Assembly: GCF_024436055.1 (NCBI RefSeq)
Contig: NZ_JANFNH010000001.1
Location: 310,001-374,000 of the forward strand
DNA length: 64,000 nt
Direction of reading: 5' to 3'
Source: Streptantibioticus rubrisoli
GTDB taxonomy: Bacteria > Actinomycetota > Actinomycetes > Streptomycetales > Streptomycetaceae
Shown here: in pieces, positions 6,936-31,246 of the stretch
How the letters are laid out: the number at the start of each line of letters is the position of its first letter
How positions within the stretch are numbered: position 1 is the first letter of the stretch
Position numbers and translations under genes: made by a program
The notes under the pieces: generated by a model
Databases searched by the model: none
Told to the model about the DNA's origin: nothing
What the model saw: the letters and a program-made list of their open reading frames with translations, nothing else

Positions 6936-7823
6936 TCACCACCGCACCGCGGTGAAGTCGACGGGCTCGGGCCGCAGCGCCCGCACCCGCTTGGCCAGGC
7001 CCCGCATCCGCTCTGCCATCTCGTCGGCGGGCAGGTACTGGCGGTCGCCGTGCCCCGGCAGCAGCCACTCGAAGCGCAGCCGGTCCACGCTGCGAGCCAG
7101 CGAGGCCGCCAGCGCCTCGATGGAGTACCAGGTGACGCTCTGCGCCACCTCCACGTCCTGAGTGCCCCGCGACCAGTAGAAGCTGTCGCCGCTGAAGCAG
7201 TACCGCTCGTCCGCCACGTACAGCACGCTGCCCTCGGTGTGCCCGGGCAGCGGATGGGCGACGACGCCCGGCGCGACCTCGAACGGATCGGTGCCGCGCA
7301 GCACGCGGTCGGCGTCCGGGGCGTACGCCAGGTCGCCCTCGTGGATCCACAGCCGGGCACCGAACCGGTCGGCGTACCGGCGGCCGTGCGCCACATGGTC
7401 CCGGTGGGTGAGCAGCACGTCCGTGACCGGACCCAACGCCTCGTATCTGTCGGCCAGTTCGGCGCTCCAGCGCGGCGTGTCGACCATCAGGTTCCCCGAA
7501 CGGCGAACCAGCAGGTAGGAGTTGGCGCCCGCGGTCCGCCGCGAGTTGTGCCCGCAGAAGTACAGACCCTCGTCCAGGCGCAGTGGATAGGGGTCGAGCG
7601 CGGGGTCCAGCCGCCGTAGGGGGTGGCGGATCGAGCGGGTGTGGCAGGCGTACGCGGCGGCGTGCAACTGCCGCAGCTCCTCGGCGTTCCGCGGCTGGTG
7701 CAGGATCCGCGAGACCCCTTCGGCCTCGCCGATCAGCCCGGGGGCGAGTTGCCGCGCCACATCGCAGTTCGTGCAGCGGTCATCCACGTACCAGCCGCCA
7801 GGTTCGGACGGTGCGTTGGGCAT
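6936..7823 (-). CDS. Metallo-beta-lactamase-fold hydrolase with N-terminal Cys-rich segment
   Basis: This 295-aa protein begins with WYVDDRCTNCDVARQLAP and a later ACHT, a CxxC...C layout like a single ferredoxin half-motif (residues about 12-62). An MBL fold follows with a metal site: LLTHRDHVAHG, PGHTEGS, FSGDSFYWS and LLPGHGD. The canonical first His of HxHxDH is replaced by Thr (T-H-R-D-H), although neighbouring His residues remain. MBL hydrolases of this group cleave thioesters or phosphodiesters or act as oxidoreductases. The specific substrate is unknown. An AGAAGGAG site precedes the ATG at 7823. Confidence 0.8.
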   Translation of the reverse strand: MPNAPSEPGGWYVDDRCTNCDVARQLAPGLIGEAEGVSRILHQPRNAEELRQLHAAAYACHTRSIRHPLRRLDPALDPYPLRLDEGLYFCGHNSRRTAGANSYLLVRRSGNLMVDTPRWSAELADRYEALGPVTDVLLTHRDHVAHGRRYADRFGARLWIHEGDLAYAPDADRVLRGTDPFEVAPGVVAHPLPGHTEGSVLYVADERYCFSGDSFYWSRGTQDVEVAQSVTWYSIEALAASLARSVDRLRFEWLLPGHGDRQYLPADEMAERMRGLAKRVRALRPEPVDFTAVRW

Positions 7824-7970: not shown

Positions 7971-8960
7971 CTATGCGGTCAACTCCCTGGCCACCTCGGC
8001 CGCCCAGTAGGTCAGGATGACGGTGGCGCCCGCGCGGCGGATTGAGGTGAGGGTCTCCCGGATGGCGCGGTCACGGTCGAGCCAGCCGCGGGCGGCGGCC
8101 GCCTCGACCATCGCCAGCTCACCCGAGACCTGGTAGGCGGCCACCGGGACATCGCACCGGTCCGCGACGGTGCGCAGCACGTCCAGGTAGGCCATGGCGG
8201 GCTTGACCATCACCAGGTCGGCGCCCTCGGCCAGGTCCAGCCGCAACTCCCTTACCGCTTCGGCCGCGTTGGCCGGGTCCATCTGGTAGGTGCGGCGGTC
8301 GCCGCGCAGTTCGCTTTCCACCGCGTCCCTGAACGGGCCGTAGAAGGCGGAGGCGTACTTCGCCGTGTAGGCCAGGATCGACACGTCGGTGAAACCGGCG
8401 CCGTCGAGCGCGGCACGGATCACCGCCACCTGCCCGTCCATCATGCCGCTGGGACCCACCATGTGCACTCCCGCGCTGGCCTGGGCGACCGCCATGGCGG
8501 CGTACCGCTCCAGCGTGGCGTCGTTGTCCACCCGGCCTTCGGCGTCCAGCACTCCGCAGTGCCCGTGATCGGTGAACTCGTCGAGGCACAGGTCGCTCAT
8601 CACCACCAGCGCGTCACCCGCCTCGGCCACGGCCTCGCCGATGGCCCGCTGCAGGATGCCGTCCGGCCGGTCGGCCTGCGAACCGGTGGCGTCCTTGCGG
8701 TTCGGCACCGCGAACAGCATCACGCCGCCGATCCCGGCGTCCGCCGCCTCGCGCACCGCCTTGCGCAGCGAGGCCAGGCTGTGCTGGACCACGCCCGGCA
8801 TGGCGGCGATGGGGCGCGGATCGCTCAGGTCCTCCTTGACGAAGAGGGGCAGCACCAGGTTCCTGGCGTGCAACCGGGTCTCCGCGACGAGATCGCGAAC
8901 CGCCGCGGTGCCGCGCAGCCGACGCGGCCTGGGTACGGGGTGCAGCGCATCGGAGGTCAA
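7971..8960 (-). CDS. hemB: Delta-aminolevulinic acid dehydratase (porphobilinogen synthase)
   Basis: HemB condenses two 5-aminolevulinate molecules to porphobilinogen. The 329-aa protein has both active-site lysines (K201 in [10 protein letters not shown] and K253 in [10 protein letters not shown]). Its metal loop [14 protein letters not shown] keeps two of the three zinc cysteines (C125, C135), with Asp at position 127. The TTG start at 8960 overlaps the hemC stop (TTGA), so translation is coupled. It is the last gene of the leftward hemE-F-A-C-B operon. A longer in-frame extension through hemC is an artefact of the open antisense-like frame. This enzyme duplicates a function every Streptomyces already needs, which marks the operon as accessory. 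Confidence 0.95.
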
Positions 8961-9889
8961 CTTCCAGCTCCCGTCGCGAGGTTGTGGTCGGCCAGCAGGG
9001 CGTCGGCCAGTGCGTGCGCGGCCAACGTGGCGTCGGCCGGGGGCGTGGCCACCGTGCGCAGGGTGCGGTGCCGCCCGTCGGGCGTGGTGATGACCGCCGA
9101 CAGCTCCAGTCGCGCCCCCGCCCGCTCGATCCGGGCGTGCGCCCCGACCGGTGCGCTGCACCCAGCCTCCAGCCGGGCCAGCACAGCGCGTTCGGCCGCG
9201 GCCGCGACCCGGGTGCCGCGGTCGTCCAGCCTGCCCAGCAGCGCCAGCAGTCCGAGGTCGTCCGTACGGCACTCCACCGCCAGCGCGCCCTGGGCCGGGG
9301 CGGGCACGAAGGCGTCCGGGTCGAGCAGTTGGCTCGCCTCGGCCAGCCGGTCCAGCCGGGCGAGCCCCGCGGCGGCCACGATGACCGCGTCCAGCTGCCC
9401 GGAACGGACCCGGCCGATGCGGGAGTCGACGTTGCCGCGCAGCGGCACCACCTCCAGCCCGGGATGCGCCCAGAGCAACTGCCCGGCGCGGCGCGGGGAT
9501 CCGGTGCCCACCCGGGCGCCCGCGGGCAACCGCTCCAGCGTTCGGCCGTCGGCGGTGACGACGGCGTCGCGCGGATCCTCCCGGGCTGGGACGGCGGCGA
9601 GGGTGATGCCTTCGGGCAGCGCGGTGGGCAGGTCCTTGTAGGAGTGCACCGCGAAGTCGATCTCCCCGCTCAACAAGGCGGCGCGCACCGCCTGTACGAA
9701 GACACCGGTGTTGCCCATCGTGGCGATGGCCGCGTTGCTGGTGTCGCCCTGGGTGGTGATGCCCACGGTGCGTACCGTGGCGCCGCTGGCGGAGCTGAGC
9801 GCGGCGGCGAAGGACGCGGACTGGGCCAGCGCCAGGGCGCTGCTGCGGGTTCCCATGCGCAGGAACCGGGTGGACGCCTGAGTGGTCAC
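8957..9889 (-). CDS. hemC: Porphobilinogen deaminase (hydroxymethylbilane synthase)
   Basis: HemC polymerises four porphobilinogens into hydroxymethylbilane on a covalent dipyrromethane cofactor. The 310-aa protein shows [12 protein letters not shown] at the N-terminus, the catalytic-loop [27 protein letters not shown], and the cofactor Cys244 in [10 protein letters not shown]. The GTG start at 9889 overlaps the hemA stop (GTGA), and its own stop overlaps the hemB start. hemD, needed for the next step (uroporphyrinogen III), is not in this cluster. The core chromosome copy presumably supplies it. Confidence 0.95.
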
Positions 9890-11211
9890 CGTTCTCCCCC
9901 GTTGCTGTTCGGCGCGCCCGCGGTGCCCGCGGGCTCCGGCCCGAAGAGGTCGTGCAGCACTTCGACATAGGTGTGGCCACCGGTTTCGGTGGCCATCTCG
10001 CGGAGGCGGACCGTCGGCCGGTGGATCAGCTTGCTGGCGATCCGCCGGGCGGTCCGCTCCACCTCCCCGCGCACCTGCCCGGGCAGCGTGGGCACGCGGT
10101 GCAGCAGCCGGTCCACCTCCTCGTCCACCACGGCCATCGCGGACCTGCGCATGGCGACGATGGCCCCGGTCGCGGCGTCCCGGTGGCGCTCGGTCTGGTA
10201 CGCCCCGGTCTCCGCGGCCACGATGCGGTGGGCCTCGGCGATCGGCACCCGCCGGGAGACCTCCTTGAGCCGGGTCTCCAGCCCTACCAGGTCGATGAGT
10301 TGGACGCCGGGCAGTGTGGCGACCGCCGGATCGATGTCCCGGGGCAGCGCCAGGTCGATGAGGACCTTCACCCCGCCGGGCCGCGCGGTGAGCGCGTCCA
10401 CCACCAACTCCCGGGTGAGAACGGGGTTCCTGGCGCCCGTGGCGGACACCACGAGGTCCGCCCGGCGCAGTGCCTGCGGCAGTTGGGGCCAGGTGGCGGT
10501 GTGCACGCCCAGCTCCCGCGCCAGCCGTTCGGCGGTGCGCGCGGTCCGGTTGACCACGGTGATCTCGCTCAGGCCCGCCCGGTGCAGCGCCACCGCGCTC
10601 AGGCTGCCCAGGTTGCCGGAGCCGAGCACCAGGGCCCGGTGCCGCTCCAGTGGACCGGCGAGCCGGGCGGCGGCCTCCAGCGCGACGGTGACCAGACAGG
10701 ACGCGGCGGCGCCGATCCGGGTCTCGTTCTCCACCCGCTTGCCGACCCGCAGCGCCCGCTGGAACAGCCCGTGCAGCACCGGCCCCACGGTGCCGCGCTC
10801 ATCGGCCAGCTGGTACGCGGCGCGGACCTGGCCGCGGATCTGCTGGTCGCCGATGAGCAGCGAGTCCAGCCCGCTGACCACCGTGAACAGGTGCTCCACA
10901 GCCTCTCGTTGCCGTCGTACGCACAACATCGAGCGCAGCTCGGCCGGATCCGCGCCGCCCGCCTGCGCCAGCGCGGCCACGAAGAGGGCCAGCACGGTGT
11001 CGGCGGCGTCGGGGTCGTCGGCGGCATCGGCATCGGTATGGACGTACAACTCGGTGCGGTTGCAGGTCGCCAGCAGCACAGCCTCCGGTACGGCGGGGGA
11101 GTCGGCGAACCGGTCGAGCAGCCGGATGACGTCCGGTGTGGTGAGCGCGGTCGCCTCCAGCAGGGCCAAGGGGGCGAGGTGGTGGCTGGTGCCCATGCTC
11201 AACAGCGTCAT
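9886..11211 (-). CDS. hemA: Glutamyl-tRNA reductase
   Basis: HemA reduces glutamyl-tRNA(Glu) with NADPH to glutamate-1-semialdehyde, the first committed step of C5 tetrapyrrole synthesis. The 441-aa protein carries the catalytic Cys50 in [14 protein letters not shown]. It also has [12 protein letters not shown], the nucleotide-binding [15 protein letters not shown] and a C-terminal dimerisation helix region. The ATG at 11211 overlaps the hemF stop (ATGA). A second HemA lets this operon raise precursor flux independently of the housekeeping copy, which is normally the heme-feedback control point. hemL, the next step, is not in the window. Confidence 0.95.
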
Positions 11212-12161
11212 CGGCTCGCCCCTTGCCCGATCGCCGCCGAGCGGCTGTCGCCCTCGGCGGCCAGCCAGTCCCTCGGGCGCAGGAAGTCGGCCAGCCGCTC
11301 CTCGGCGCTGCCCGGTTCGGTCTGCGGGTGGAAGGTCCAACCGGCCAGTGGCGGAAGGGACATCAAGATGGCGTCGATGTTGCCGCCGGTCTGCAGCCCG
11401 AACTGGGTGCCGCGGTCGTAGACCAGGTTGAACTCGACATAGCGGCTGCGCCGGTGCAACTGCCAGCGCCGCTCCCGCTCGCCGTACTCCAGGAGCGTGC
11501 GGCGGCGCACGATCGGCAGGTAGCCGGGCAGCAGGCTGGTCAGTCCGTCCTCGACGAAGGCCAGCGCATGGTCCCAGCCGTGCGGCCCGGGTGGACGCAG
11601 CCGGTCGAAGAAGATGCCGCCGACGCCGCGGGTCTCCTGCCGGTGCGGCAGGTAGAAGTAGCGGTCGCACTCCTGCTTCGCCGAGGCGTAGAAGCCCGGC
11701 TCGAAGCGGTCGCAGCAGTCCTTGAGCGTGCGGTGTAGATGCCGGGCGTCCTCCTCGAAACCGTACGACGGCGTCATGTCCGCGCCGCCGCCGAACCACC
11801 AGGTGTCCTGGTCGTTGACCTCGAAATAGCGGAAGTTGGCGTGGAAGGACGGCACCCAGGGGTTGCGCGGATGGACCACCATGGACAGTCCGGTGGCGAA
11901 GAAGCCGCCGGTCAGTTCACGTCCGGGCTCGGTGCGGGCGATGGACGGCGGTACCCGGTCGCCGTGCACCGCCGAGACGTTCACCCCCGCCCGCTCGAAC
12001 ACCGCGCCGCCCTCCAGGATCCGGGCCCAGCCGCCGCCTCCCGCTGGGCGCAGCCAGTCGTGCTCCCGGAAGCGTTCGCAGCCGTCGCACTCCTCGAAGG
12101 CGGCCACCAGTTGACTTTGCTGGTCCTTGAGCAGGTCCAGCACCTTGCCGCGGTCCCTCAC
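11208..12161 (-). CDS. hemF: Oxygen-dependent coproporphyrinogen III oxidase
   Basis: HemF oxidatively decarboxylates coproporphyrinogen III to protoporphyrinogen IX using O2 and no cofactor. The 317-aa sequence has the full family signature: GVNVSAVHGDRVPP, MVVHPRNPWVPSFHANFRYF, WWFGGGADMTPSYGFEEDA, EFNLVYDRGTQFGLQTGG and AILMSLPPL. The GTG start at 12161 overlaps the hemE stop. HemF belongs to the protoporphyrin-dependent route. Actinobacteria usually lack it and use coproporphyrin ferrochelatase plus ChdC (HemQ). Its presence between hemE and hemA is the strongest sign that this operon encodes a different, probably acquired, heme route. Confidence 0.95.
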   Translation of the reverse strand: MRDRGKVLDLLKDQQSQLVAAFEECDGCERFREHDWLRPAGGGGWARILEGGAVFERAGVNVSAVHGDRVPPSIARTEPGRELTGGFFATGLSMVVHPRNPWVPSFHANFRYFEVNDQDTWWFGGGADMTPSYGFEEDARHLHRTLKDCCDRFEPGFYASAKQECDRYFYLPHRQETRGVGGIFFDRLRPPGPHGWDHALAFVEDGLTSLLPGYLPIVRRRTLLEYGERERRWQLHRRSRYVEFNLVYDRGTQFGLQTGGNIDAILMSLPPLAGWTFHPQTEPGSAEERLADFLRPRDWLAAEGDSRSAAIGQGASR

Positions 12162-13195
12162 CGGAGCCCCCCGGGTATGGCCGCCGGTTCGCGGTCGAAC
12201 GACCGCACGGCGTCCACGAGTCGGCTGACGCGGTCGGGCGGGACGTCCGGGCGGATGCCGTGCCCCAGGTTGAAGATGTGCGGTCCGCCGATCCCGTGCC
12301 GCAGGACCTCCCGCGCCTGCTCGGCGATCACCTCGGGGGCCGCGGTGAGCACCGCGGGGTCGAGGTTGCCCTGCAGCGTCCGGCCGGGCAGCGCGGGGCG
12401 TACCGCGGACAGCGGTGCGCGCCAGTCGACACCGATCACCTCGGCGGGCAGGTCGGCCAACTGGTCCAGCAGGTGGTGGGCGTTGGTCGCGAAGTAGATC
12501 CGCGGTACGGACAGATCGCCGATCCCGGCCAGGGCCCGGGCCGCGTAGGGCTGGCCGAAGCGGGCGTGGACCGCGGCGGAGTGCACCCCGGCCCAGGAGT
12601 CGAAGAGCTGGACGGCGTGCACCCCGGCGGTGATCTGCGTGCGCAGATAGCGGATGGTGACCTCGGTGAGCTTGTCCAGCAGGGCGTGCGCGGTGCCAGG
12701 CTGTTGGTGCAGCCAGGACCGGAAGCCGGGGAACCCCTCGGCGGTGCCTCCGCTTTCCACCAGGTAGGCGGCGAGGGTGAGCGGCGCTCCGGCGAATCCG
12801 ATCAACGGTACGTGCGTGGCCGCGCGCACCATGGGAATCGCGGCGGCCACGAACGGGGCGATCTCCTCTGCTTCCGGGACGCGCAGTCGCGCCACGTCAG
12901 CGGCGGTGCGCACCGGTCGGGCGATCACCGGGCCGGGGGCGAAGTCGATCTCCACTCCCATCGCGGCGAGCGGCACCATGATGTCGCTGAACAAGATCGC
13001 CGCGTCGAGATCGAAACGGCGTACCGGTTGCAGTGTCACTTCGGTGACGGCTTCCGGATTGCGGCACATTTCAAAGAATCCGTACCGCTCTTTGACCGCG
13101 CGGTACTCGGGAAGGTATCGGCCCGCCTGACGCATGATCCAAATAGGCGCTCGGGCGGTGTCTTTGCCCGACGCGGCGTCCAGAAACAGACTCAC
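12158..13195 (-). CDS. hemE: Uroporphyrinogen III decarboxylase
   Basis: HemE removes four acetate carboxyls from uroporphyrinogen III to give coproporphyrinogen III. The 345-aa protein has IWIMRQAGRYLPEYR (substrate-binding Arg22 and Arg26), FSDIMVPL with the catalytic Asp71, GFAGAPLTLAAYLVE, and GVDWR and NLGHGIRPD near the C-terminus. The N-terminus is short (MSLFLDAASGKDTARAP). The GTG start at 13195 has GGGGGAA upstream. It is the first gene of the leftward hem operon, facing hemH across a 220-bp control region. Confidence 0.95.
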   Translation of the reverse strand: MSLFLDAASGKDTARAPIWIMRQAGRYLPEYRAVKERYGFFEMCRNPEAVTEVTLQPVRRFDLDAAILFSDIMVPLAAMGVEIDFAPGPVIARPVRTAADVARLRVPEAEEIAPFVAAAIPMVRAATHVPLIGFAGAPLTLAAYLVESGGTAEGFPGFRSWLHQQPGTAHALLDKLTEVTIRYLRTQITAGVHAVQLFDSWAGVHSAAVHARFGQPYAARALAGIGDLSVPRIYFATNAHHLLDQLADLPAEVIGVDWRAPLSAVRPALPGRTLQGNLDPAVLTAAPEVIAEQAREVLRHGIGGPHIFNLGHGIRPDVPPDRVSRLVDAVRSFDREPAAIPGGLR

Positions 13196-13226
13196 CTGCG
13201 TTCCCCCAGTCGACAGGAAGTTTGGA

Positions 13227-13265
13227 CCTTAGACAGGTTGCAACTCCCTTGTCGGGCTGTCAAGT
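13227..13265. promoter_or_regulatory. Control elements in the hemE/hemH divergent intergenic region
   Basis: On the plus strand CCTTAGACA (13227-13235) is followed, after 13 bp, by TTGTCGGGCTGTCAAG. Read leftward this contains TTGACA, a good -35 for hemE. The strings CCTTAGACA and TTGTCnGnCTGT recur, with a shorter gap, in the tetR/MMPL intergenic region (16989-17010). Both hem operons and the exporters may therefore answer to the same regulator, presumably the adjacent TetR. This is a pattern match between two sites only. Confidence 0.45.
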
Positions 13266-13415
13266 TGATGCAACAATCGCTGACTTGCCACCATTGTCCG
13301 TCAGGCGCGGCCAAATCACCGCCGCTGCCGGTGGGTTGGGAATGAATCCCGTCTTCCGGATTTGCTTCGACGTGGCGCCGGGTGGCTGGATCTCGCCTGA
13401 CTGGGGGAATGTGCG

Positions 13416-14552
13416 ATGGTGAATCAGGAGCCCACCGGAATCGTGATGATGAATCTCGGCGGGCCGCGGTCGCTCGATGACGTCGAGCCATTTCTGCGCA
13501 ACCTCTTCCTGGACCGGGAAATCATCCAACTGCCGTTGCAGGAGCGGCTGGGCGCGTTCATCGCGAAGCGCCGGGCGCCGAAGGTGCGCGGCCTCTACGA
13601 GGCCATCGGCGGTGGCTCACCGCTGTATGACTGGACCACCCGACAGGGGCGTGGGATGGTCGAGCGGCTGGACGTGCTCTGTCCCGAGACCGCGCCGCAC
13701 CGCTTCTACCTGGCCTTTCGCTACACCGATCCGTCCAGCGAGCAGGCTCTGCGGCAGATGGCGGCGGACGGGGTGCGGCGCGCCGTCGCCTTCTCGCAGT
13801 ATCCGCAGTACTCGTGCACCACGACGGGTTCCAGCCTCAACGAACTGTGGCGCACCGCGCGGCGGTTGGGGCTGGCGGAGTCCTTCGAATGGAGCGTCAT
13901 CGACCGCTGGTCGGCCCATCCGGCCTTCGTGCGGGCCATGGCGGCGAAAGTCAGGGAAGGTCTCGGCCACTTCCACGAGTCGGTCCGCGGCGATGTCGTC
14001 GTGCTGTTTAGCGCGCACTCGCTGCCACGCCGGGTCATTGACCGGGGAGACCCCTATCTTCAGGAAGTCGCGGCCACTGTGCATGATGTGATGCGGGAGA
14101 TCGGCGGCGGTCATGAGTACGCGCTGTCCTTTCAGGCCGATGTCGGGCCGGTGGCCTGGCAGGGGCCGAGCACGGAATCGGTCATCCGGGCGCTCGGTGG
14201 GCAGGGACGACGGCATGTATTGATTGTGGGAATCATTTTCACCTCGGATCACCTGGATACCCTCTCCGAGATAGACATCGAGTTCGCCGAGGTGGCCGAG
14301 CAGGCCGGGGTCACCGATTTCCACCGTGCGCCCGCGCCCAATGACGACCCGGTCTTCCTGGACGCGCTCGCCGAGGTCGTCGCCGACCACCTGCGCGATG
14401 GACGCGGTTGCTCACGGCAGTTCACGCTGCGCTGCGCTGGGTGCGACAACGCGCGGTGCCGGGAGATCCTCAACCCCGCGCGGGCGCACCGCCGTACCGA
14501 CCCCGGGACCGAACGGCAGCCCGCGCTGCCCGCACACCGGTCGACGCGGTGA
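13416..14552 (+). CDS. hemH: Ferrochelatase of the animal/myxobacterial [2Fe-2S] type
   Basis: HemH inserts Fe(II) into protoporphyrin IX. The 378-aa protein has the active-site His201 in FSAHSLP, plus LNLGGP-like MMNLGGPRSLDDV, FIAKRRAPKV, IGGGSP, QYPQYSC and FTSDHLDTL. Four cysteines, C134 (QYPQYSC), C340, C343 and C348 (CAGCDNARC), correspond to human C196, C403, C406 and C411. The 3- and 5-residue spacings are the same, and C332 matches human C395. Native actinobacterial coproporphyrin ferrochelatases place cluster cysteines differently and lack this tail. A GGGGGA site precedes the ATG at 13416. The stop overlaps the hemY start (GTGA). Confidence 0.95.
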   Translation: MVNQEPTGIVMMNLGGPRSLDDVEPFLRNLFLDREIIQLPLQERLGAFIAKRRAPKVRGLYEAIGGGSPLYDWTTRQGRGMVERLDVLCPETAPHRFYLAFRYTDPSSEQALRQMAADGVRRAVAFSQYPQYSCTTTGSSLNELWRTARRLGLAESFEWSVIDRWSAHPAFVRAMAAKVREGLGHFHESVRGDVVVLFSAHSLPRRVIDRGDPYLQEVAATVHDVMREIGGGHEYALSFQADVGPVAWQGPSTESVIRALGGQGRRHVLIVGIIFTSDHLDTLSEIDIEFAEVAEQAGVTDFHRAPAPNDDPVFLDALAEVVADHLRDGRGCSRQFTLRCAGCDNARCREILNPARAHRRTDPGTERQPALPAHRSTR

Positions 14553-15919
14553 GCCCCGACCGCCCGCATGTCGTCGTCATCGGCGGCGGCATCACCGGGC
14601 TCGCCGCGGCGTTCGACCTCCACCAGGCCTGCCAGGTAACGGTGTTGGAGGCGGCCCAAACGGTCGGCGGCAAGATCGCCAGCCACTCGGCCGACGGCTA
14701 CACCGTGGACCTGGGTCCCAACGGCTTCCTGGACGGATCCGCCGAACTGCGCCGCGTGGTGGACGAGTTGGGCCTGGCCGATCGACTGCTCCCCGCGGCG
14801 GACCAGGCGCGCGACCGGTTTGTGCTGCGCGGCGGCCGACTACAGCCTTTGCCGTCCACCGCCGGGGCGGCGCTGACCAGTGCGCTGCTGCCCGCCTACG
14901 CCAAACCGCGGCTGCTCGTCGAACCGCTGGTCGGCCGGGTCGAGGGACGGGAGGAGACCGTCCACACCTTCCTGGCCCGGCGGTTCGGACGCCAGGCGGC
15001 CGACCTGCTCGGCCCGCTGGTGGTGCACGGGGTGAGTGGCGGCGACCCCCGTAAGATCAGCCTGGACGCGGCGTTCCCCCGGATCCGTGAGCTGGAGCGG
15101 CAGCACCGGGGTCTGCTGACGTTGGCCTTGCGCGGCACACCGCGTGCCAGGCTGACCAGCTTCCGTGACGGCGGGACGCGGGTGCTCGTCGACGCGCTGG
15201 CCGCCCGGCTCCGCGACGCCATCCGCACCCGTTCCCCGGTGCACCGCCTGGAGCGGCGCGACGTAGGCGGCTGGCTCGTACACACGGCGCACGACGAGAT
15301 CCGCGCCGACCACGTCCTGCTGGCCGTCCCCGCCCCGGCCGCCGCGCGGCTGCTCCAGCCCCATCTGCCGCGCGCCGCCCAGTGGTTGAACGCCGTGCGC
15401 TACGCCCCGATCCGGGTCACGGCACTGGGCTACCGCCGATCGTCGCTGGCCACCGTGCCCCGCGGCTTCGGCTTCCTGACCGCGGCGGGCGAGACCACCC
15501 GGATGTTCGGCACCGTCTACAGCTCCTCCGTCTTCCCGGACACCGCCCCCGCCGACGGCGTACTGCTGCGGGTCTTCGCTGGCGGGGTCGAGGACCCGGA
15601 GCTGACCCGGCTGCCCGGCGAGGTGGTGATCGAACGGTTCCACCGGGACCTGGCCGCCCTGCTCGGCCTCACCGAACCGCCCGAGTTCACCCATGACCAC
15701 GTATGGACCGAGGGCATCCCGCAGTACGAACTGGGCCACCAGGCCCGGATCCAGGGCGCGCTGGACGAACTGGCGGGCCTGCCGGGGCTGTACGCCGCGG
15801 GCAGCGCGTACCACGGCGTGGCCGTGCGGGACTGCGTGGCCGACGCCCACCGGGCCGCCGCCGAGATCCGTGCGGCGCTCACCCAGGCACCCACCGTCGC
15901 CACAGGAGGACAGCACTGA
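14549..15919 (+). CDS. hemY: Oxygen-dependent protoporphyrinogen oxidase, HemY type (PPOX)
   Basis: This FAD enzyme oxidises protoporphyrinogen IX to protoporphyrin IX. The 456-aa protein starts with a dinucleotide-binding motif (VVVIGGGITGLAAAFDL). It has DLGPNGFLD, FPRIRELERQHRG, a late GFGFLTAAGETTRMFG and the C-terminal GIPQYELGH...GVAVRDCV segment that closes the FAD site. These blocks resemble Myxococcus PPOX as I remember it. The GTG at 14549 overlaps the hemH stop, giving tight coupling with the downstream ferrochelatase step. It could accept coproporphyrinogen like CgoX, but the HemF partner argues for protoporphyrinogen. Confidence 0.92.
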   Translation: MSPDRPHVVVIGGGITGLAAAFDLHQACQVTVLEAAQTVGGKIASHSADGYTVDLGPNGFLDGSAELRRVVDELGLADRLLPAADQARDRFVLRGGRLQPLPSTAGAALTSALLPAYAKPRLLVEPLVGRVEGREETVHTFLARRFGRQAADLLGPLVVHGVSGGDPRKISLDAAFPRIRELERQHRGLLTLALRGTPRARLTSFRDGGTRVLVDALAARLRDAIRTRSPVHRLERRDVGGWLVHTAHDEIRADHVLLAVPAPAAARLLQPHLPRAAQWLNAVRYAPIRVTALGYRRSSLATVPRGFGFLTAAGETTRMFGTVYSSSVFPDTAPADGVLLRVFAGGVEDPELTRLPGEVVIERFHRDLAALLGLTEPPEFTHDHVWTEGIPQYELGHQARIQGALDELAGLPGLYAAGSAYHGVAVRDCVADAHRAAAEIRAALTQAPTVATGGQH

Positions 15920-16377
15920 TGGAGGACAAGAAGGCCCAGACCCGCCGGATGCTCAGCGAACGGCTCCAGCGCTACCTGGAACTGCGCGCCGAACACGGTG
16001 CGGACAAGGCGCGGGAGATCCTGCTGGACGGCTACCCGCAGCGACAGGCCGCCCGCATGGGACCGCTGATCAGCGGCTGCTCGCTCGCCGAGGGCATCGG
16101 CAAGGCGCTGCCGAGGTTCGAGGAGATGGGCTTCCTCGAAGAGGCGATCGACATATCGACCGACACCGAGGACGCGGTGCTCGAAGCCTGCCGTACCTGT
16201 ATGTGCCTGATGGCCGCCGAGGACCTGGGCCTGGACGAGCCGCTGCCCATCCTGTGCGAGCTGGACTTCGAGGCCACCCGGCGCGCCTTCCCCGAGATGA
16301 CCGTGCGGAGCCTGCGCAGGCAGACCGACGGACACCATGTGTGCGCCTTCCGCTACTCGAGGCCGCGTCAGGGCTGA
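15919..16377 (+). CDS. Cys-rich 152-aa protein of the hem operon, possibly ATC-hydrolase/V4R-like
   Basis: An AGGAGGA site sits inside the hemY 3' end and the ATG overlaps its stop (TGATG), so this protein is made with HemH and HemY. It has a helical basic N-terminus, a central ISGCSLAEGIGKALPRFEEMGF segment, the cluster ACRTCMC (about residues 94-100), ILCELDFEATRRAFPE and a C-terminal TDGHHVCAFRYSR. The last pattern resembles ends of L-2-amino-thiazoline-4-carboxylate hydrolase-like and V4R (4-vinyl-reductase-type) proteins. Neither assignment is secure. The cysteines could bind iron or heme. I know of no heme pathway with this component. Its 3' end overlaps the convergent tetR by 10 nt. 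Confidence 0.8.
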   Translation: MEDKKAQTRRMLSERLQRYLELRAEHGADKAREILLDGYPQRQAARMGPLISGCSLAEGIGKALPRFEEMGFLEEAIDISTDTEDAVLEACRTCMCLMAAEDLGLDEPLPILCELDFEATRRAFPEMTVRSLRRQTDGHHVCAFRYSRPRQG

Positions 16378-16982
16378 TCGGGCGCGAACAGGCCGGACGC
16401 CAGCAGCAGCCGCAGGTCCGCGGCGACCGTTTCCACCGAATCGGGCGATCTGAGCACCTGCTCGCGCGCCCCCGCCAGCAGGTGCATCAGCAACTCCGCA
16501 TGCCGCTGCGGGCTCACCTCGGCATGGAAGACACCGTCGCGCCGCCCGTCCGTCAGCACCTCGGAGAGCAGTTGGCGCAGCCGGTCGGTGTGCTGGGTCA
16601 TCCGGGTGCGGATGCTGGGGCTGATTCCGGCGGCCTGGAACTCCAGGGCGCGGGAGCGGCGTTCGGGGCGGGCGAAGTACTCCAGGTGCGTCCCTATGAA
16701 GGCGGCCAGCCGCTCACGTGGTCCGGCCGCCTGCTCCAGCCGGTCGCACAGGTGCCGGTAGAACAGGTCCACCTCGTCCTGCACCACGGCCAACAGTACG
16801 CCTTCCACATGGCGGTAGTAGTTGTAGAGCGTCGCCCGGGACACATCGGCCCGCTCGGCGATCGCCGCCATGGTCGTGTTGGCCAGGCCCTTCTCCACCG
16901 CGACCGAGATCGCCGCCTGTTTGATGCGCGCCCGGACCTGCTCCTTGTGCTCGGCCACCACCTTGTCCCAACTGGAAACCAT
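16368..16982 (-). CDS. TetR-family transcriptional regulator
   Basis: This 204-aa protein has a TetR N-terminal HTH: TMAAIAERADVSRATLYNYYRHVEGVLLAVV (about residues 37-67). It is followed by a helical ligand-binding half with no recognisable ligand signature. The gene is divergent from the MMPL exporter at 17111, the usual arrangement for a repressor of a drug or metabolite pump. The TTAGACAACTTGTCAGTCTG element in between overlaps a likely -35 for the exporter. Because similar strings lie in the hemE/hemH region, it may also govern heme synthesis and could sense a porphyrin or heme. That is inference. Confidence 0.9.
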   Translation of the reverse strand: MVSSWDKVVAEHKEQVRARIKQAAISVAVEKGLANTTMAAIAERADVSRATLYNYYRHVEGVLLAVVQDEVDLFYRHLCDRLEQAAGPRERLAAFIGTHLEYFARPERRSRALEFQAAGISPSIRTRMTQHTDRLRQLLSEVLTDGRRDGVFHAEVSPQRHAELLMHLLAGAREQVLRSPDSVETVAADLRLLLASGLFAPDQP

Positions 16983-17110: not shown

Positions 17111-19306
17111 GTGAGTTCGCGCTTAGGCACGGGCCGATTCGGGTTGGTGCTGTGGGCCGTTGTGATCGGCTGGCTCGGTGTGGCAGCCGTACTCGGGCCG
17201 CTCCAGGGCAAGTTGACGAAGGCGGAGAGCAACGACAACGCCGCCTTCCTGCCGCGCTCCTCGCAGTCCGCGCGCGTCGACCAACTGCTCACCCAGCGCT
17301 TCGCGACCGGCGACGCGCTCCCCGCCCTGATCGTCTACCAGCGCCCCACCGGCCTGACCCCCGCCGACCGCAACGCCTTGGTGGCGGACGCCGCCCGGCT
17401 GCGCGGCCTGCCCGACATCGGCCGCCCGACGCTGCCGTCACCCGGCTCGGCCAAGGGGGCACCACGGCTGTGGTCCGCCGACGGCACGGTAGCGGTCACC
17501 GTGGTGCCCGTGACCGCGCACGGCCTGAAGGTCCGCCAGGCAGTCGACGCCATCAAACGCCGACTGCGGACGGTCCCGGGCCTGCGCACCTACGTCACCG
17601 GCCCGGCGGGCATCAGCGCGGATGCCATCAGTGTCTTCAGCAGCATCGACTTCCGGCTGCTCGCGGCCACCGTGGCACTGGTCCTGGTACTGCTGCTGGT
17701 GGTCTACCGCTCGCCCGTCCTGGCGTTCGTGCCCCTGCTCGTGGTGGGCCTGGCGTATGTGCTCGCCTCCGGCCTGGTCTATGTACTGGCCACGCGGGGC
17801 GGGCTGTTGGTCAACAGTCAGGCCACCTCGCTGATGCTCATCTTGATGTTCGGCGCGGGAACCGACTACTGCCTGCTGCTGATCGCCCGCTACCAGGACG
17901 AACTGCGCCGCCACAGCTCCAGCGCGGCGGCGATGCGCGCCGCGCTGGGCAGGGTGTGGGGCTCGGTGTTCTTCAGCGGCCTGACCGTCATCGCCTCTTT
18001 GGCCGCGCTGTTCGCCACCCGGCTCGGCTCGACCAGGGTGATCGCCCCGGTCGGCATCATCGGCGTGGGCTGCGTGCTGCTGGCGGCGTTCACGTTGCTT
18101 CCCGCGCTCCTGGTGCTGCTGGGCCGCCGGGCGTTCGGGCGGCGGCGCCTCGACGCGCAGGAGCGGTCGGGCGGTTGGGAGCGCATCGCGCGGGCCGTGC
18201 TCACCCGCCCGTGGTGGGCGGTGGCGGGCACCCTGGTACTGCTGGCCGTCGGATCGCTCGGCGCCATCCGCTACACCGACGATGTCAACCTGCTCAACGC
18301 CTTCCGCGCGCACACCTCTTCGGCGGCCGGATACCAGGCCATCGCGCACGCCTTCCCGGCGGGCACGGCGGCGCCCACCACGGTACTGGTGGAGCGTACC
18401 GGCGGCCCGCTGCGCGAGTCCGACCTGGCGGCGGCCAGCACGGCGCTGCGCCCGGTCCGGGACATCGCCTCCGTCGCGCCGCTGCCGGTGCGCTCCACGG
18501 ACGGGCGGATCGGCGAGCTGCGGGTCGTGCTGGACGTCGACCCGTACGGTAGCGCGGGACTGGCCAGGCTGGCTGACATCCGGCACCGGCTGTCCACCCA
18601 ACTCCCCTCCGGCACCAGGGCGTTGGTGGGTGGCGACCCAGCGGTGCAACTGGACACCAAGTACGCCGCCGACCACGACCTGCGGGTCGTCGTACCGCTG
18701 GTGCTGACGATCATCCTGGTGATCCTCGTGGCACTCCTGCGCGCGCTGGTCGCCCCGCTGTACCTGATCGGTACCGTCGTCGCCTCGTTCTTCGGCGCGT
18801 TCGGGATCTCGGTGTTCGTCTTCCGCGTACTGCTGCACCAGCACGGCATCAACCCCGTCGAGCCCACCTTCGCGTTCCTGTTCCTGGTGGCGCTCGGCGT
18901 GGACTACAACATCTTCCTGATGGCCAGGGTCCGGCAGGAGACCCGAAGCCACGACACCCGTACCGCGGTGGCCGTCGGGCTGCGCGCCACCGGTTCGGTG
19001 ATCACCAGTGCCGGGGTCATCCTCGCCGGTACCTTCGCGGTGCTGATGGTGCTGCCGCTGGTCATGCTGTTCCAACTCGGCTTCACCGTCTGCGTCGGCG
19101 TGCTGCTGGACACCTTCCTGGTACGGACCGCACTGGTGCCCGCCCTCACCCATCTGCTGGGGGAGCGTTCGTGGTGGCCCGGCCGGACCCTGACCACCCA
19201 GCCCACCACGACAGTTCACCGGGAGCCGACACAGCCATGGCCCAGACAGTCACCGAAGGAAGCGGGCAACGGCCCGTCGTCGCCCGCGCCGCGTGGCGGC
19301 AGCTAG
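17111..19306 (+). CDS. MMPL-family RND exporter
   Basis: This 731-aa membrane protein has the MMPL layout. TM1 is near the N-terminus (LVLWAVVIGWLGVAAVL), followed by an extracellular loop, five TMs, a second loop and five TMs. Paired motifs GAGTDYCLLL and GVDYNIFLMARV carry the Asp-Tyr pairs linked to proton coupling in this family. MMPL pumps move lipids, polyketides and, in mycobacteria, siderophores and heme. The GTG at 17111 follows GGAGGCAGGCGAA; upstream in-frame codons lack a ribosome site. It lies between its probable TetR repressor and an MFS exporter that overlaps its 3' end. Substrate unknown; a porphyrin or heme-related compound is a context-based guess. Confidence 0.92.
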   Translation: MSSRLGTGRFGLVLWAVVIGWLGVAAVLGPLQGKLTKAESNDNAAFLPRSSQSARVDQLLTQRFATGDALPALIVYQRPTGLTPADRNALVADAARLRGLPDIGRPTLPSPGSAKGAPRLWSADGTVAVTVVPVTAHGLKVRQAVDAIKRRLRTVPGLRTYVTGPAGISADAISVFSSIDFRLLAATVALVLVLLLVVYRSPVLAFVPLLVVGLAYVLASGLVYVLATRGGLLVNSQATSLMLILMFGAGTDYCLLLIARYQDELRRHSSSAAAMRAALGRVWGSVFFSGLTVIASLAALFATRLGSTRVIAPVGIIGVGCVLLAAFTLLPALLVLLGRRAFGRRRLDAQERSGGWERIARAVLTRPWWAVAGTLVLLAVGSLGAIRYTDDVNLLNAFRAHTSSAAGYQAIAHAFPAGTAAPTTVLVERTGGPLRESDLAAASTALRPVRDIASVAPLPVRSTDGRIGELRVVLDVDPYGSAGLARLADIRHRLSTQLPSGTRALVGGDPAVQLDTKYAADHDLRVVVPLVLTIILVILVALLRALVAPLYLIGTVVASFFGAFGISVFVFRVLLHQHGINPVEPTFAFLFLVALGVDYNIFLMARVRQETRSHDTRTAVAVGLRATGSVITSAGVILAGTFAVLMVLPLVMLFQLGFTVCVGVLLDTFLVRTALVPALTHLLGERSWWPGRTLTTQPTTTVHREPTQPWPRQSPKEAGNGPSSPAPRGGS

Positions 19307-20445
19307 CGGCCTGCACCGCGGTCGCCACGCTGCTGCAACTCGACGGCACCATCGTCACGGTGGCACTGCCCTCGGCGGGCGGTCACTTCGGCGCCACCGC
19401 ACAGGGCCAGTCCTGGGTGCTGACCGCCTACTTCGCCACCTACGCGGCTGGACTGCTGCCCGGCGGCCGGATGGTGGAGCGCTTCGGGCCGCGCCGCACC
19501 GCGCTGCTCGGGCTGGCCGTGTTCGCCGCCGGAACGCTGATGGGCGCGCTGGCCGGATCCCTCGCCGTGCTCATCGCCTCCCGCGTGGTGCAGGGCGTCG
19601 GCGCCGGGCTCGCCAGCCCCGCCGCGCTCACCGGCGCGGTCGGCGGCTTCCCGGCCGAGCGCCGGGGGACCGCGCTGGGCATCTGGGGCGGCGCCTCCGG
19701 CCTGGCCAACCTCGTCGGGCCGCTGCTCGGCGGACTGCTCACCGCGGGCTGGGGCTGGCGGGCCAACTGGTGGACGCTGCTGGCGCTGACGCTGTCGGCG
19801 GTCGCGGCGGCACTCGGCTGGGTGCGGATCGCAACGTCCGGGCCGTCGCGTGCCGCGGACGGCCCGATGCGCACCGCGCGAGCGGCGTCGATCACAGCGG
19901 CGCTCACCTTCGCCATGATGATCGGCACGTTCTTCGCCATAGAGCAGTACCTGCAACAGGCCGCGGGCTACGGTGCGTTGACCGCCGCCGCGGCGCCCAT
20001 GGTGCTGGCCCTGTTCATCGGCGCGGCCAGTCCGGTGGCCGGACGCACCACCGACCGGTACGGGGAGCGCGGCCCGGCCCTGTGCGGCTTCCTGGCCGCC
20101 GCGGTGGTGTTCGGCGCGTACGCGCTGCTGCCGCCGCACGGCCCGCTGATGGTCCCCGGCGGTGTGGTACTCGGTTTCGCGCTCGGCCTGCTGTTCCCCG
20201 CGACCTCGCGCGCCGCCCTGAACTCCGTCCCCGACGCCCTGCACGGCCGGGTCTCCGCCCAACTCTCCGCCGGTCGCCTACTGGGCGCCGCCGCGGGCGT
20301 GGCCCTGGCTGGTCTGTCCTTCCGGCAACACGTCACAGCCGACCGCCTGCACTGGATCCTTCTGGGCGGCGCGATTCTGGCCCTGGCGGGCGTGGCGGTG
20401 GTGGCGGCGGGGTTCCACGGCGCGGGGAGTCGGGGGGATGGGTAG
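19237..20445 (+). CDS. MFS transporter, DHA2-like drug exporter
   Basis: This 402-aa membrane protein has about 12 hydrophobic segments. It carries the DHA2-type entry LLQLDGTIVTVALPS and the loop motif GRMVERFGPRRT (motif A). Also present is VVQGVGAGLASPAA (motif C-like). It is shorter than 14-TM DHA2 members. The ATG at 19237, 70 nt inside the MMPL gene, gives a normal N-terminus (MAQTVTEGSG). An in-frame GTG at 19171 is possible. The overlap implies co-transcription with the MMPL pump under TetR control. Proton-driven export of a small molecule is expected; substrate unknown. Confidence 0.9.
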   Translation: MAQTVTEGSGQRPVVARAAWRQLAACTAVATLLQLDGTIVTVALPSAGGHFGATAQGQSWVLTAYFATYAAGLLPGGRMVERFGPRRTALLGLAVFAAGTLMGALAGSLAVLIASRVVQGVGAGLASPAALTGAVGGFPAERRGTALGIWGGASGLANLVGPLLGGLLTAGWGWRANWWTLLALTLSAVAAALGWVRIATSGPSRAADGPMRTARAASITAALTFAMMIGTFFAIEQYLQQAAGYGALTAAAAPMVLALFIGAASPVAGRTTDRYGERGPALCGFLAAAVVFGAYALLPPHGPLMVPGGVVLGFALGLLFPATSRAALNSVPDALHGRVSAQLSAGRLLGAAAGVALAGLSFRQHVTADRLHWILLGGAILALAGVAVVAAGFHGAGSRGDG

Positions 20446-21733: not shown

Positions 21734-23539
21734 TCAGGTTCGGGCGAAGCGCGCGATCGGGTTCTTCACGGTGCCGACGAGTTGGAGCGCCCCGGTCGGG
21801 TCCTGCAGATCGACCATCCGCCGGTTGTCGCGCAGCTGCAACCGGTTGAGGCAGGAGAGTGCGAACTCCCCGCAGAACAGGTCGTACCGCTTGAACCGCT
21901 CGGCCAAGTGCGGGTGTGCCGACTGGTATTCGGCCACGCAGTCGGCGACCGTCGACCAGAACGTGTCCTCGTCCAGCGTGCCGTTCACGCTGAGGATCCC
22001 GTTGAGGAAGCGCAGGAAGCAGTCGAAGACATCAGTGAAGAGCGACAGCGTCCACAACTCCTCCGGCACCCGCGCGCGGATCCGCTCGACCTCGGGCGGC
22101 AGCGGGGTGTCCGGGTCCATCACCACGATCTCCTCGGCGATGTCCTTGAAGATCACCCGCTGGACGGCCCCGCCATCCAGCACCAGGATGACGTTCTCGC
22201 CGTGCGGCATGAACACCAGGCCGTAGGCGTAGAAGCAGTGCAGCAGCGGGGTGAGGTAGGCGTCCAGATAGCGGCGCAGCCAGGTCGCGGCGTCGAGTCC
22301 CGACTCCTCGATCAGCGCGGCGGTGAACGAGCCCCCGCCCCGGTCGACGTGCAGCAGCGAGGCCATGGTGGCCAGTCGCTGACCGGGCGCCAGCTTCGGC
22401 ACCGGGCTCTCCCGCCACAGCGCGGCCAGCATCTTCAGGTACGGCGAGCCCTTGGCGGACGTGGCGGCGTACTGCCTGTGGTGGTAGCCGACGGCGGCCC
22501 GCTCCCGGAGCACGGCCAGACCGGTTCGCTGGAGCACCTCGTCCTCGGCGACCAGTGCGGCCAGCCAGTCGTTGATCGCCGGAGTGGCCTTCATGTACTC
22601 GGCGGAAAGGCCGCGCACGAAGCCCATGTTGAGCACCGACAGCGCGGTCTTCACATAGTGCTTGGACGGGTCGGAGGTGTTGAAGAAGGTGCGGATCGAC
22701 TGCTGGGGCAGATAGGTGTCGTCACCGTGGCCGAGGCAGACGATGTTGCGCTGGGCGACCTCGGCGGCGAACGTCACCGACAGCTTGTTCCACCACTGCC
22801 AGGGGTGGACCGGCATCAGGTGGAAGTCACCGAGGTCCAGGCCGAGTTCGGCCATCGTGGCGGTGAACCGCTCCAGGGTTGCCTCGCCCAGCTCGGAGCG
22901 GATCAGTTCGTCGTAGTCCAGGTCGGCGCCGACCGAGAACGTCGACCGGTCGCGCCGGGCGGCCAGCCAGATCAGCCGTACCCCGTCCGCGGCCTCGGGC
23001 GCGTACGTCAGGTACTCGGGCGCGCCGAAACCCAACCGGCCGTTGTTGGCCACGAAGCAGGGGTGGCCCTCGGTCATCCCGGCCTCGATCCGCTGGAAGG
23101 GGGCCTTGGCGAGTTCCGCCGAACCGACCGGTGGCTGGGAGAGTTTGAAGGCGCTGCTGGCCAGTGTGCTGCTGATCTCCTCCAGGTAGACGGGGAGGAC
23201 CTCCTGGTCCAGGTGGAGGGTCTCGCGCAGTTCGATGAACAGGTCCAGTGCGTCCAGGGGGAGTTGGGCGCCACCGCGGTGCCGGGTGATGGAGTCCGGG
23301 TCGATCCACCAGTGGTCCAAGGTGAGCAGCCGGGCGGTGAAGCGGTACTCCACCGTGCCGTCGTCGCTGGTGACGGTGTACTCGCCGGACTCCTGCCGTC
23401 TCGGGGCCAGCAGCCGTTCGTGGGAGAACTCGGCGAGGGCCTTGCGGACCAGCGACCGGTTGGCGCGGCTCCACAGTTCGGGTGTCAGATGCGCGACCAC
23501 GTCGCGCGGGGTGTGGTTGTGCATGGCGCTCCGGTTCAC
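21734..23539 (-). CDS. desD: Desferrioxamine synthetase DesD (IucA/IucC family NIS synthetase)
   Basis: DesD is the ATP-dependent NIS synthetase that condenses N-hydroxy-N-succinylcadaverine units and macrocyclises them to desferrioxamine E or B. The 601-aa protein has IucA/IucC features: KLSQPPVGSAE, EGHPCFVANNGRLGFG, MPVHPWQWW, SIRTFFNT-type triphosphate contacts. A C-terminal FhuF-like segment follows, with HGENVILVLDGG and RVIFKDIAEE. The ATG at 23539 overlaps the desC stop (ATGA). It is the final gene of desEFABCD, followed by a hairpin. Confidence 0.95.
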   Translation of the reverse strand: MNRSAMHNHTPRDVVAHLTPELWSRANRSLVRKALAEFSHERLLAPRRQESGEYTVTSDDGTVEYRFTARLLTLDHWWIDPDSITRHRGGAQLPLDALDLFIELRETLHLDQEVLPVYLEEISSTLASSAFKLSQPPVGSAELAKAPFQRIEAGMTEGHPCFVANNGRLGFGAPEYLTYAPEAADGVRLIWLAARRDRSTFSVGADLDYDELIRSELGEATLERFTATMAELGLDLGDFHLMPVHPWQWWNKLSVTFAAEVAQRNIVCLGHGDDTYLPQQSIRTFFNTSDPSKHYVKTALSVLNMGFVRGLSAEYMKATPAINDWLAALVAEDEVLQRTGLAVLRERAAVGYHHRQYAATSAKGSPYLKMLAALWRESPVPKLAPGQRLATMASLLHVDRGGGSFTAALIEESGLDAATWLRRYLDAYLTPLLHCFYAYGLVFMPHGENVILVLDGGAVQRVIFKDIAEEIVVMDPDTPLPPEVERIRARVPEELWTLSLFTDVFDCFLRFLNGILSVNGTLDEDTFWSTVADCVAEYQSAHPHLAERFKRYDLFCGEFALSCLNRLQLRDNRRMVDLQDPTGALQLVGTVKNPIARFART

Positions 23540-24129: not shown

Positions 24130-24130
24130 C

Positions 24131-25468: not shown

Positions 25469-25498
25469 GGGTCTCTCCGGTCCGGTGGGTCGGGTGGG

Positions 25499-26998: not shown

Positions 26999-27076
26999 GA
27001 TGTGTCCTAGCGTCAGGTGTCGGGGGGGTCGGGGGTCCAGCCCCTGGGAGCGCGGCCCCCGCGAGGGAAGAAGTCG

Positions 27077-27925: not shown

Positions 27926-27957
27926 GGGGTCCCTCCCGAAAGGTGAGTCGCGTCGGT

Positions 27958-28977: not shown

Positions 28978-29048
28978 GGCGGAACTTCCTTCATCGGTGG
29001 CGTCATCGCGTACGGCGTGCCTGACGACGCCGGTGATCGAGATCGATG

Positions 29049-29067
29049 TTAGGTTAACCTAACCTAA
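29049..29067. promoter_or_regulatory. DmdR/IdeR iron box controlling des and the importer
   Basis: TTAGGTTAACCTAACCTAA matches the actinobacterial iron-box consensus (TTAGGTTAGGCTAACCTAA type). It also contains the perfect 14-bp palindrome TTAGGTTAACCTAA. It lies between desE (leftward) and the FecCD permease (rightward). Fe(II)-loaded DmdR1 bound here would shut off both operons. Confidence 0.93.
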
Positions 29068-29121
29068 GTCACTGTCCAATGGGGGGCGGCCGCCGCTCCC
29101 CGGTCGCACCGGAGCACCTAC

Positions 29122-31205: not shown

Positions 31206-31246
31206 GCGGGAACGTGAACAACGGACAACGCGAGGTACCGAAGAAG

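Follow-up and report, generated by a model that had tools for sequence, protein, structure and literature searches.

Evidence for a second, protoporphyrin-type tetrapyrrole route with a divergent human-type ferrochelatase in Streptantibioticus rubrisoli

The coproporphyrin route is the one that textbooks assign to actinobacteria. A precedent for second hem gene sets is given by the tolyporphin clusters of cyanobacteria, in which the enzyme TolI acts; the primary paper on TolI is that of Ushimaru et al. 2023. As described in reviews (PMC10459692, PMC8401325), TolI has a bound iron-sulfur cluster and strips a porphyrinogen of vinyl groups, releasing acetaldehyde, and the tolyporphin clusters contain second hem copies without hemD, a tolI gene annotated as the same hydrolase as a protein of the present locus, and transport genes. 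Ferrochelatases provide the other point of comparison. The iron-sulfur cluster of the Myxococcus xanthus ferrochelatase sits in an internal insertion, and for Actinobacteria with a motif only C-terminal motifs are reported in the available sections of Weerth et al. (PMC8529089). In the human enzyme, according to a review (PMC9133952), E343 sits in a pi-helix and its replacement by Asp impairs a step after chelation, and residues 302 to 314 form a metal-sensitive loop with a role in product release. Among open-licence PMC papers, none was found that describes an actinobacterial cluster of the kind presented here.

The window, a stretch of 64,000 nucleotides from S. rubrisoli (contig NZ_JANFNH010000001.1, positions 310,001 to 374,000 of the forward strand), contains a ferrochelatase gene, hemH, at 13416 to 14552 on the plus strand. 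This gene is one of an eight-gene pathway cluster; the sequence-only reading that had singled it out mentions neither the cluster, nor the Asp at the human E343 position, nor the second, native ferrochelatase of the genome. There is good support for the view, in our judgment very probable, that the cluster constitutes a second tetrapyrrole route of the protoporphyrin type, mixed in origin and equipped with a human-type ferrochelatase. The genes lie in two arms. The minus-strand arm, hemE-F-A-C-B, was assigned by profiles and trees and comprises hemE (uroporphyrinogen decarboxylase of the PPD-bacterium type, 12158 to 13195), hemF (oxygen-dependent coproporphyrinogen III oxidase, 11208 to 12161), and second copies of hemA (glutamyl-tRNA reductase, 9886 to 11211, 40% identical to the genome's native copy), hemC (hydroxymethylbilane synthase of actinobacterial type, 8957 to 9889), and hemB (porphobilinogen synthase of actinobacterial type, 7971 to 8960, 73% identical to the native copy). 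On the plus strand, hemH is followed by hemY (protoporphyrinogen-oxidase family, 14549 to 15919, from profile and PDB sequence searches) and by a gene for a PF14196 (ATC_hydrolase) protein (15919 to 16377, from its Pfam profile). Neighboring genes of the minus arm overlap by 4 bp each, as do hemH and hemY, and hemY overlaps the PF14196 gene by 1 bp; reading frames and overlaps in the window are intact.

The two arms diverge from an intergenic region delimited by the ORF positions (13196 to 13415), in which a scan for consensus promoters and terminators found nothing. Neither hemD nor hemL is among the window cluster genes, and none of the genes from hemB to the MFS transporter encodes a HemF2, a P450, or a glycosyltransferase. 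Next to the plus arm are a TetR-like regulator (16368 to 16982, minus strand) and an MMPL-family transporter (17144 to 19306, plus strand, start uncertain), both recognized by profile and by locus comparison and conserved in S. ferralitis and Streptomyces sp. SAJ15, and an MFS transporter (19171 to 20445, plus strand, start uncertain) taken from the ORF list and its profile. On the other side, a gene encoding a ferredoxin-like domain fused to a metallo-beta-lactamase fold (6936 to 7787) adjoins hemB, an arrangement also present in S. ferralitis and absent from the other three loci.

The same window holds a siderophore gene set at 21734 to 32080 (IucA/IucC, lysine/ornithine monooxygenase, PLP decarboxylase, acetyltransferase, SIP, binding protein, FecCD, and ABC ATPase), which we take to be of the desferrioxamine type. 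A link between this set and the cluster was rejected, as the des-like genes found at 21.7 to 32 kb here are not beside the cluster in S. ferralitis. A DtxR-like iron box lies within the siderophore region at 29049 to 29067; being a single palindrome that matches on both strands, it is the sole match, with none near 13.2 to 13.4 kb, and iron-box regulation of the cluster was likewise rejected. A tRNA-Arg called by ARAGORN at 30914 to 30999, inside the FecCD permease ORF (30174 to 31205), is probably false.

Profile, alignment, tree, and fold searches all identify the 378-residue hemH product as a human-type ferrochelatase. It scores 323 bits against TIGR00109 (hemH; cutoff, 124.6), and phmmer aligns its residues 6 to 351 (5 to 351 for some entries) with ferrochelatase entries assigned to human from their structure titles (E values of 1.8e-116 to 7.4e-113). 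In a MAFFT alignment, it is 49% identical to human FECH with a single one-residue gap within the aligned segment; H201 corresponds to the catalytic H263, and F337, D340, and H341 of the human enzyme are also kept. The sequence-only reading had equated C134, C340, C343, and C348 with human C196, C403, C406, and C411, and C332 with C395, and the alignment, in human numbering, bears out all five; every stretch that it had quoted as shared with the human enzyme (QYPQYSC, FIAKRRAPK, IGGGSP, FSAHSLP, RGDPY, and FTSDH) occurs in the ORF. Cysteine occupies all four ligand positions in 40 of 123 aligned ferrochelatases, every one of them in a single 42-row clade whose remaining 2 rows are without the tail. 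Because the set is confined to this clade and is present in none of the 29 rows taken as native actinobacterial CpfC and none of 19 other actinobacterial ferrochelatases, the four-cysteine match is not due to chance. An AlphaFold2 model built from 14 aligned sequences (mean pLDDT, 81) has a core that matches the human enzyme, and its top PDB fold match is 4kla, titled "E343D variant of human ferrochelatase." The pLDDT falls below 50 at residues 331 to 378 and 135 to 138, leaving the cysteine tail unplaced, so the Fe-S site of the hemH product is a prediction from sequence.

Ferrochelatase relationships were examined in a first tree of 123 rows (117 distinct) and in a careful tree of 55 hand-chosen rows. 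In the careful tree, the ferrochelatases of the five actinobacterial clusters form one clade (support, 100/99) within an enclosing clade (100/98) that also holds human, Deinococcota, Gemmatimonadota, some Chloroflexota, one Planctomycetota, a deltaproteobacterial metagenome-assembled genome (MAG), and two Myxococcota, and that is separate from native CpfC and from seven proteobacterial sequences. The description of the enzyme as "animal-type" is misleading, since the human sequence is itself nested in a bacterial clade (100/98). Native actinobacterial enzymes do differ, as had been claimed: hemH and the CpfC of its own genome are 27% identical, and a grouping of hemH with five native CpfC rows was rejected (AU test, P = 0.00086).

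The gene is rare among actinobacteria. Matches to hemH below 1e-100 occurred in 2 of 100 related genomes (its own and that of S. ferralitis, with a third Streptantibioticus genome having none) and in 1 of 396 evenly drawn Actinomycetota, its own; another 24 of the 396 matched at 2.7e-76 to 1.0e-41, and all 19 of those aligned are without the full cysteine set. Searches of other phyla at the same threshold recovered human-type hemH from 28 of 101 Deinococcota genomes, 2 of 151 from Chloroflexota, and 2 of 111 from Myxococcota. Plasmid and phage ferrochelatases are all less than 60% identical to hemH. A group of Actinomycetota with genomes of 1.4 to 2.8 Mb (loci L064 to L082) have ferrochelatases that are 33 to 43% identical to hemH and are without the cysteine set.

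A myxobacterium-like donor had been proposed for hemH. Transfer as such is supported by the rejected CpfC grouping and by the rarity of the gene in actinobacteria; a myxobacterium-like source is not supported, the AU tests rejecting a grouping with eight fetched insertion-type genes (P = 8.6e-51) and also one with four other, insertion-less myxobacterial sequences (P = 4.7e-7). Of the Myxococcota, 95 genomes matched, 48 of the 95 in two or more pieces that were mostly broken near residues 205 to 236, and the eight fetched genes with broken matches all have a cysteine-rich insertion and none has the four human-type ligands, in agreement with what parts of Weerth et al. (PMC8529089) describe. 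No such insertion is present in hemH, which has 30 residues over human positions 270 to 300, as in the human enzyme. The trees took the loci returned by each phylum search, which for Myxococcota meant the best 20 of 111 genomes, none of them insertion-type; a later quick tree, and no other, includes the eight insertion-type genes and omits the haloarchaeal row because of its long branch. The closest sampled sequences to hemH come from Deinococcota (64% identity), Gemmatimonadota (62%), and Chloroflexota (60%); a single Myxococcota sequence follows at 58%, and the branching order among these relatives is not supported in the careful tree. Because the myxobacterial groupings were rejected, a more fitting description of the donor would be a bacterium that uses the protoporphyrin pathway and is close to Deinococcota, not tied to any one phylum. 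Separately, human FECH is surrounded in its clade by Chloroflexota, Planctomycetota, Deinococcota, and similar bacteria, a position that is relevant to where the eukaryotic enzyme came from; its grouping with five plasmid-borne alphaproteobacterial sequences was rejected (P of about 1e-22).

The S. rubrisoli genome (a 7.26-Mb draft in 103 contigs, with the cluster inside a 672,880-base contig) retains a native pathway. ChdC is encoded elsewhere, adjoining a HemY-family gene taken as CgoX; a second ferrochelatase, the native CpfC, lies on another contig and has several cysteines in its C terminus; and a native hemE and a native hemA-hemC-539-aa ORF-hemB locus are also present. Because the same genome has CpfC and ChdC elsewhere, the gene at 13416 to 14552 is not its native ferrochelatase.

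The other Hem proteins of the cluster differ in origin. HemE is 61% identical to that of a Truepera MAG and 45% identical to its native counterpart, and the three cluster sequences (of five) included in the hemE tree join Deinococcota and Myxococcota with a support of 100. HemF occurs in 3 of 396 Actinomycetota, S. rubrisoli included; the other two (G147 and G434) have genomes of about 2 Mb. The window HemF is 59 to 60% identical to those of Deinococcota, and in the hemF tree all five cluster sequences fall with Deinococcota and apart from two other actinobacteria (100/100), with weak support for the unity of the five (66/54); as the tree otherwise consists only of Deinococcota and those two actinobacteria, a wider donor could not show. 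HemY is 40 to 42% identical to Trueperaceae sequences, and its best solved relative is 2ivd (234.6 bits, versus 159.8 for 3i6d), these being presumably M. xanthus and Bacillus subtilis proteins, respectively; by family, both PgoX and CgoX are possible. HemB and HemC fall inside actinobacterial clades (support, 99 and 98), and the cluster copies of HemA are placed without support; for hemE, hemA, hemB, and hemC, trees were built quickly, with SH-aLRT as the sole support measure. By these placements and identities, HemE, HemF, and HemH are foreign, HemY is probably so, and their genes have been joined to hemB and hemC copies that are actinobacterial duplicates.

The cluster ferrochelatases depart from their relatives at positions that are otherwise nearly invariant. 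At the position of the active-site Glu that is invariant in human-type ferrochelatases (human E343), hemH has Asp (D281), which makes it a divergent relative, not an ordinary member, of that group. Asp occurs here in all five cluster ferrochelatases, across proteins diverged down to 53 to 54% identity, and Glu in 117 of 117 other rows (one further row being truncated), as well as in 8 of 8 additional careful-tree rows and 8 of 8 insertion-type myxobacterial rows. The position of human S303 (A241 in hemH) is Ala in four of the cluster proteins and Asp in the fifth, and Ser in 118 of 118 other rows; Ser is also kept in all eight insertion-type myxobacterial sequences and in 7 of 8 additional careful-tree sequences, the haloarchaeal enzyme having Asn. 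At L311, all five have Gln, with Leu in 107 other rows and Gln in one. These departures at E343, S303, and L311 fall within the product-release machinery described for the human enzyme. H263, F337, D340, H341, R115, and the four cysteine ligands are intact in all five.

Of 18 near-invariant columns, 2 are changed in the cluster clade and none in 10 of 11 control clades; the single control clade with changes, also at 2 columns, is a 27-sequence CpfC clade, whose substrate is different. Two of the ten unchanged clades are subsets of this 27-member clade, so the controls are not all independent. For the other six cluster enzymes, a looser criterion and smaller alignments (20 to 64 rows, with all five cluster sequences in) recovered departures in at least four of the five sequences at HemE G153, HemF F147, and HemA S177, with none for HemB, HemC, or HemY; one more HemE column is a gap in all five.

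The 152-residue product of the gene at 15919 to 16377 scores 31.7 bits against ATC_hydrolase, for which the Pfam cutoff is 28.1. Its homologues in S. ferralitis and SAJ15 score 32.5 and 42.0, and that of Streptoalloteichus (L053) scores 19.1, below the cutoff; four cysteines (C94, C96, C113, and C142) are invariant among the four proteins. Of 80 chosen genomes, 4 encode the protein, and all are bearers of the cluster (S. rubrisoli, S. ferralitis, SAJ15, and Streptoalloteichus hindustanus); searches of the fifth bearer, S. beigongshangae, and of the 75 genomes that do not carry the actinobacterial cluster did not detect it, and viral contigs and plasmids yielded no relatives. PDB sequence searches returned no convincing relative (best E value of 3.3e-6, to 68 residues of a designed repeat protein; 0.089 in the other search), and a structure prediction from four sequences has a mean pLDDT of 44. 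We regard this protein as a TolI-like candidate, the link being the shared Pfam family name.

A scan of named genomes with two peptide patterns gave at least 25 loci, a lower bound, of which four are actinobacterial: those of S. ferralitis, Streptomyces sp. SAJ15, S. beigongshangae, and Streptoalloteichus hindustanus. All four contain hemA, hemB, hemC, hemE, hemF, hemH, and hemY, in a different order in Streptoalloteichus. An MFS gene 61 to 81% identical to the window copy lies beside the cluster in the three other Streptomycetaceae, and the surroundings in S. ferralitis largely match those in the window, including the neighbors on the hemB side. The genes listed for the other genomes, from flanking stretches of at most 20 kb, include no shared biosynthetic neighbors beyond the cluster and the transporters. 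ChdC is present in all five bearers and in none of three tested nonactinobacterial genomes with human-type hemH (Trueperaceae, Chloroflexota, and Myxococcales); in the Trueperaceae locus (L037), hemC-B-E-F-H form one stretch, with hemY further along.

Several further features of these and other loci were observed. A flavin-dependent halogenase-like gene (Trp_halogenase; L036:2491-4269) directly adjoins hemB of S. beigongshangae, the bearer without a PF14196 gene, and a DDE-type transposase-like gene (L053:12580-13881) lies between hemY and the PF14196 gene of Streptoalloteichus hindustanus. On a Haloterrigena plasmid (L204), hemH is beside an MMPL transporter and hemG, echoing the hemH/hemY/MMPL arrangement of the window, and similar hemH-hemG pairs occur on other haloarchaeal plasmids.

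In our proposed scheme, hemH would provide the metal-inserting step of a self-contained second protoporphyrin-dependent route, with ordinary heme coming from the native coproporphyrin-dependent pathway of the same bacterium. That the second route serves a specialized product, not spare heme, is an evenly balanced proposition. It is suggested by E343D and S303A/D in all five bearers and by the bearer-only distribution of PF14196; against it stand the facts that L311Q is not unique, that a haloarchaeal enzyme has Asn at S303, that PF14196 is named for another activity and the Streptoalloteichus protein falls below its cutoff, and that the window cluster, unlike tolyporphin clusters, has no P450, glycosyltransferase, or second HemF. 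The duplicated HemA, HemB, and HemC would drive precursor made from glutamate toward uroporphyrinogen III; HemD and HemL would come from the native pathway, since the window cluster is without both, and HemE and HemF would lead on to protoporphyrinogen IX. The PF14196 protein, present in four of the five bearers, may act as TolI does and strip one or both vinyl groups; with a single HemF, apparently of the ordinary type, the expected TolI-like step is from protoporphyrinogen IX to deuteroporphyrinogen IX. HemY would then oxidize the ring and HemH insert the metal to give a metallo-deuteroporphyrin, the changes at E343, S303, and L311 perhaps tuning product release or the choice of metal or substrate, and the MFS and MMPL pumps would carry it out of the cell. 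A metalloporphyrin serving as a specialized metabolite, possibly metallo-deuteroporphyrin, is thus the predicted end product. The narrower claim is tentative and rather doubtful: that a devinylated metalloporphyrin (metallo-deuteroporphyrin) is produced and exported by some actinobacteria, with a TolI-like Fe-S hydrolase acting before ring oxidation and a naturally E343D human-type ferrochelatase altered in its choice of metal or substrate. In S. beigongshangae, the hem set and the altered ferrochelatase occur without PF14196, indicating that the vinyl step would not be universal and that the active-site changes do not track it.

The alternative to which we give most weight, as a real possibility that falls well short of probable, is a redundant protoporphyrin-dependent pathway to ordinary heme b, kept as a back-up or as a way around inhibitors or conditions that block the coproporphyrin-dependent enzymes. 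The cluster has an enzyme family for each conversion between uroporphyrinogen III and heme b, HemE, HemF, and HemY retain nearly all of the columns conserved in their relatives, and no ChdC was detected in the organisms that harbor the closest relatives of HemE, HemF, and HemH (3 of 3 tested). Such a pathway leaves unexplained, however, the clade-wide E343D and S303A/D, the PF14196 gene and the exporters, and the duplication of HemA, HemB, and HemC, as the same precursor is supplied by the native route. The duplicated and diverged HemA, HemB, HemC, and HemE beside MFS, MMPL, and TetR genes could also be read as a cassette that gives the bearer strains precursor supply for, and self-resistance to, an inhibitor of heme synthesis of their own making. 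This reading is improbable: resistance needs one altered enzyme, not a whole pathway, and no biosynthetic genes are common to the flanks of the different genomes, among the genes listed.

Decay of the ferrochelatase would account for the same substitutions in another way, with E343D marking loss of function in a poorly active enzyme and the cluster drifting. The impairment of a step after chelation by human E343D, as described in parts of PMC9133952, is in keeping with this, but the Asp is fixed in five proteins down to 53 to 54% identity, the catalytic residues and four cysteine ligands are intact in 5 of 5, and the window frames are unbroken, making decay very improbable. Assembly contamination, for which a draft in 103 contigs leaves room, has a negligible probability in that the locus lies inside a 672,880-base contig, the first 40 kb of the window (1 to 40 kb) have an even G+C content of 68 to 74%, and the same locus with the same hemB-side neighbors is present in S. 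ferralitis.

Read as a second protoporphyrin-type cassette beside a native route, the locus amounts to a natural experiment in how a pathway is chosen. Should the PF14196 protein prove to work as TolI does, culturable actinobacteria would be a source of porphyrin natural products of a new class, and if the devinylated-metalloporphyrin reading is true, this would be a natural-product pathway ending in a dedicated chelatase. Human E343D is a laboratory mutant; the same change appears to have become fixed in nature alongside substitutions in the metal-sensitive loop, which makes the model of product release testable on an evolved enzyme.

Like tolyporphin BGC-1 of cyanobacterium HT-58-2 and its relatives, the cluster combines second copies of hemA, hemB, hemC, hemE, and hemF without hemD with a protein annotated as a PF14196-type hydrolase and with transport genes. 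It differs in having one HemF, in being without hemL, P450, and sugar genes, in the presence of hemY and a ferrochelatase, and in its host, which is actinobacterial, not cyanobacterial. With human FECH, hemH shares the four cluster ligands and C395, the catalytic His, and the propionate-binding R115, Y123, and S130, over a comparison that covers hemH up to residue 351, and differs from it by E343D, S303A, and L311Q. Actinobacterial CpfC has the same family and fold, but cysteine is absent at the C196 and C411 positions in 29 of 29 rows, and these proteins form a separate clade. The human-type ferrochelatases of Trueperaceae, Gemmatimonadota, and Chloroflexota have both the clade (100/98) and the four cysteines in common with hemH, whereas E343 and S303 are intact in all rows of that clade outside the five actinobacterial clusters.
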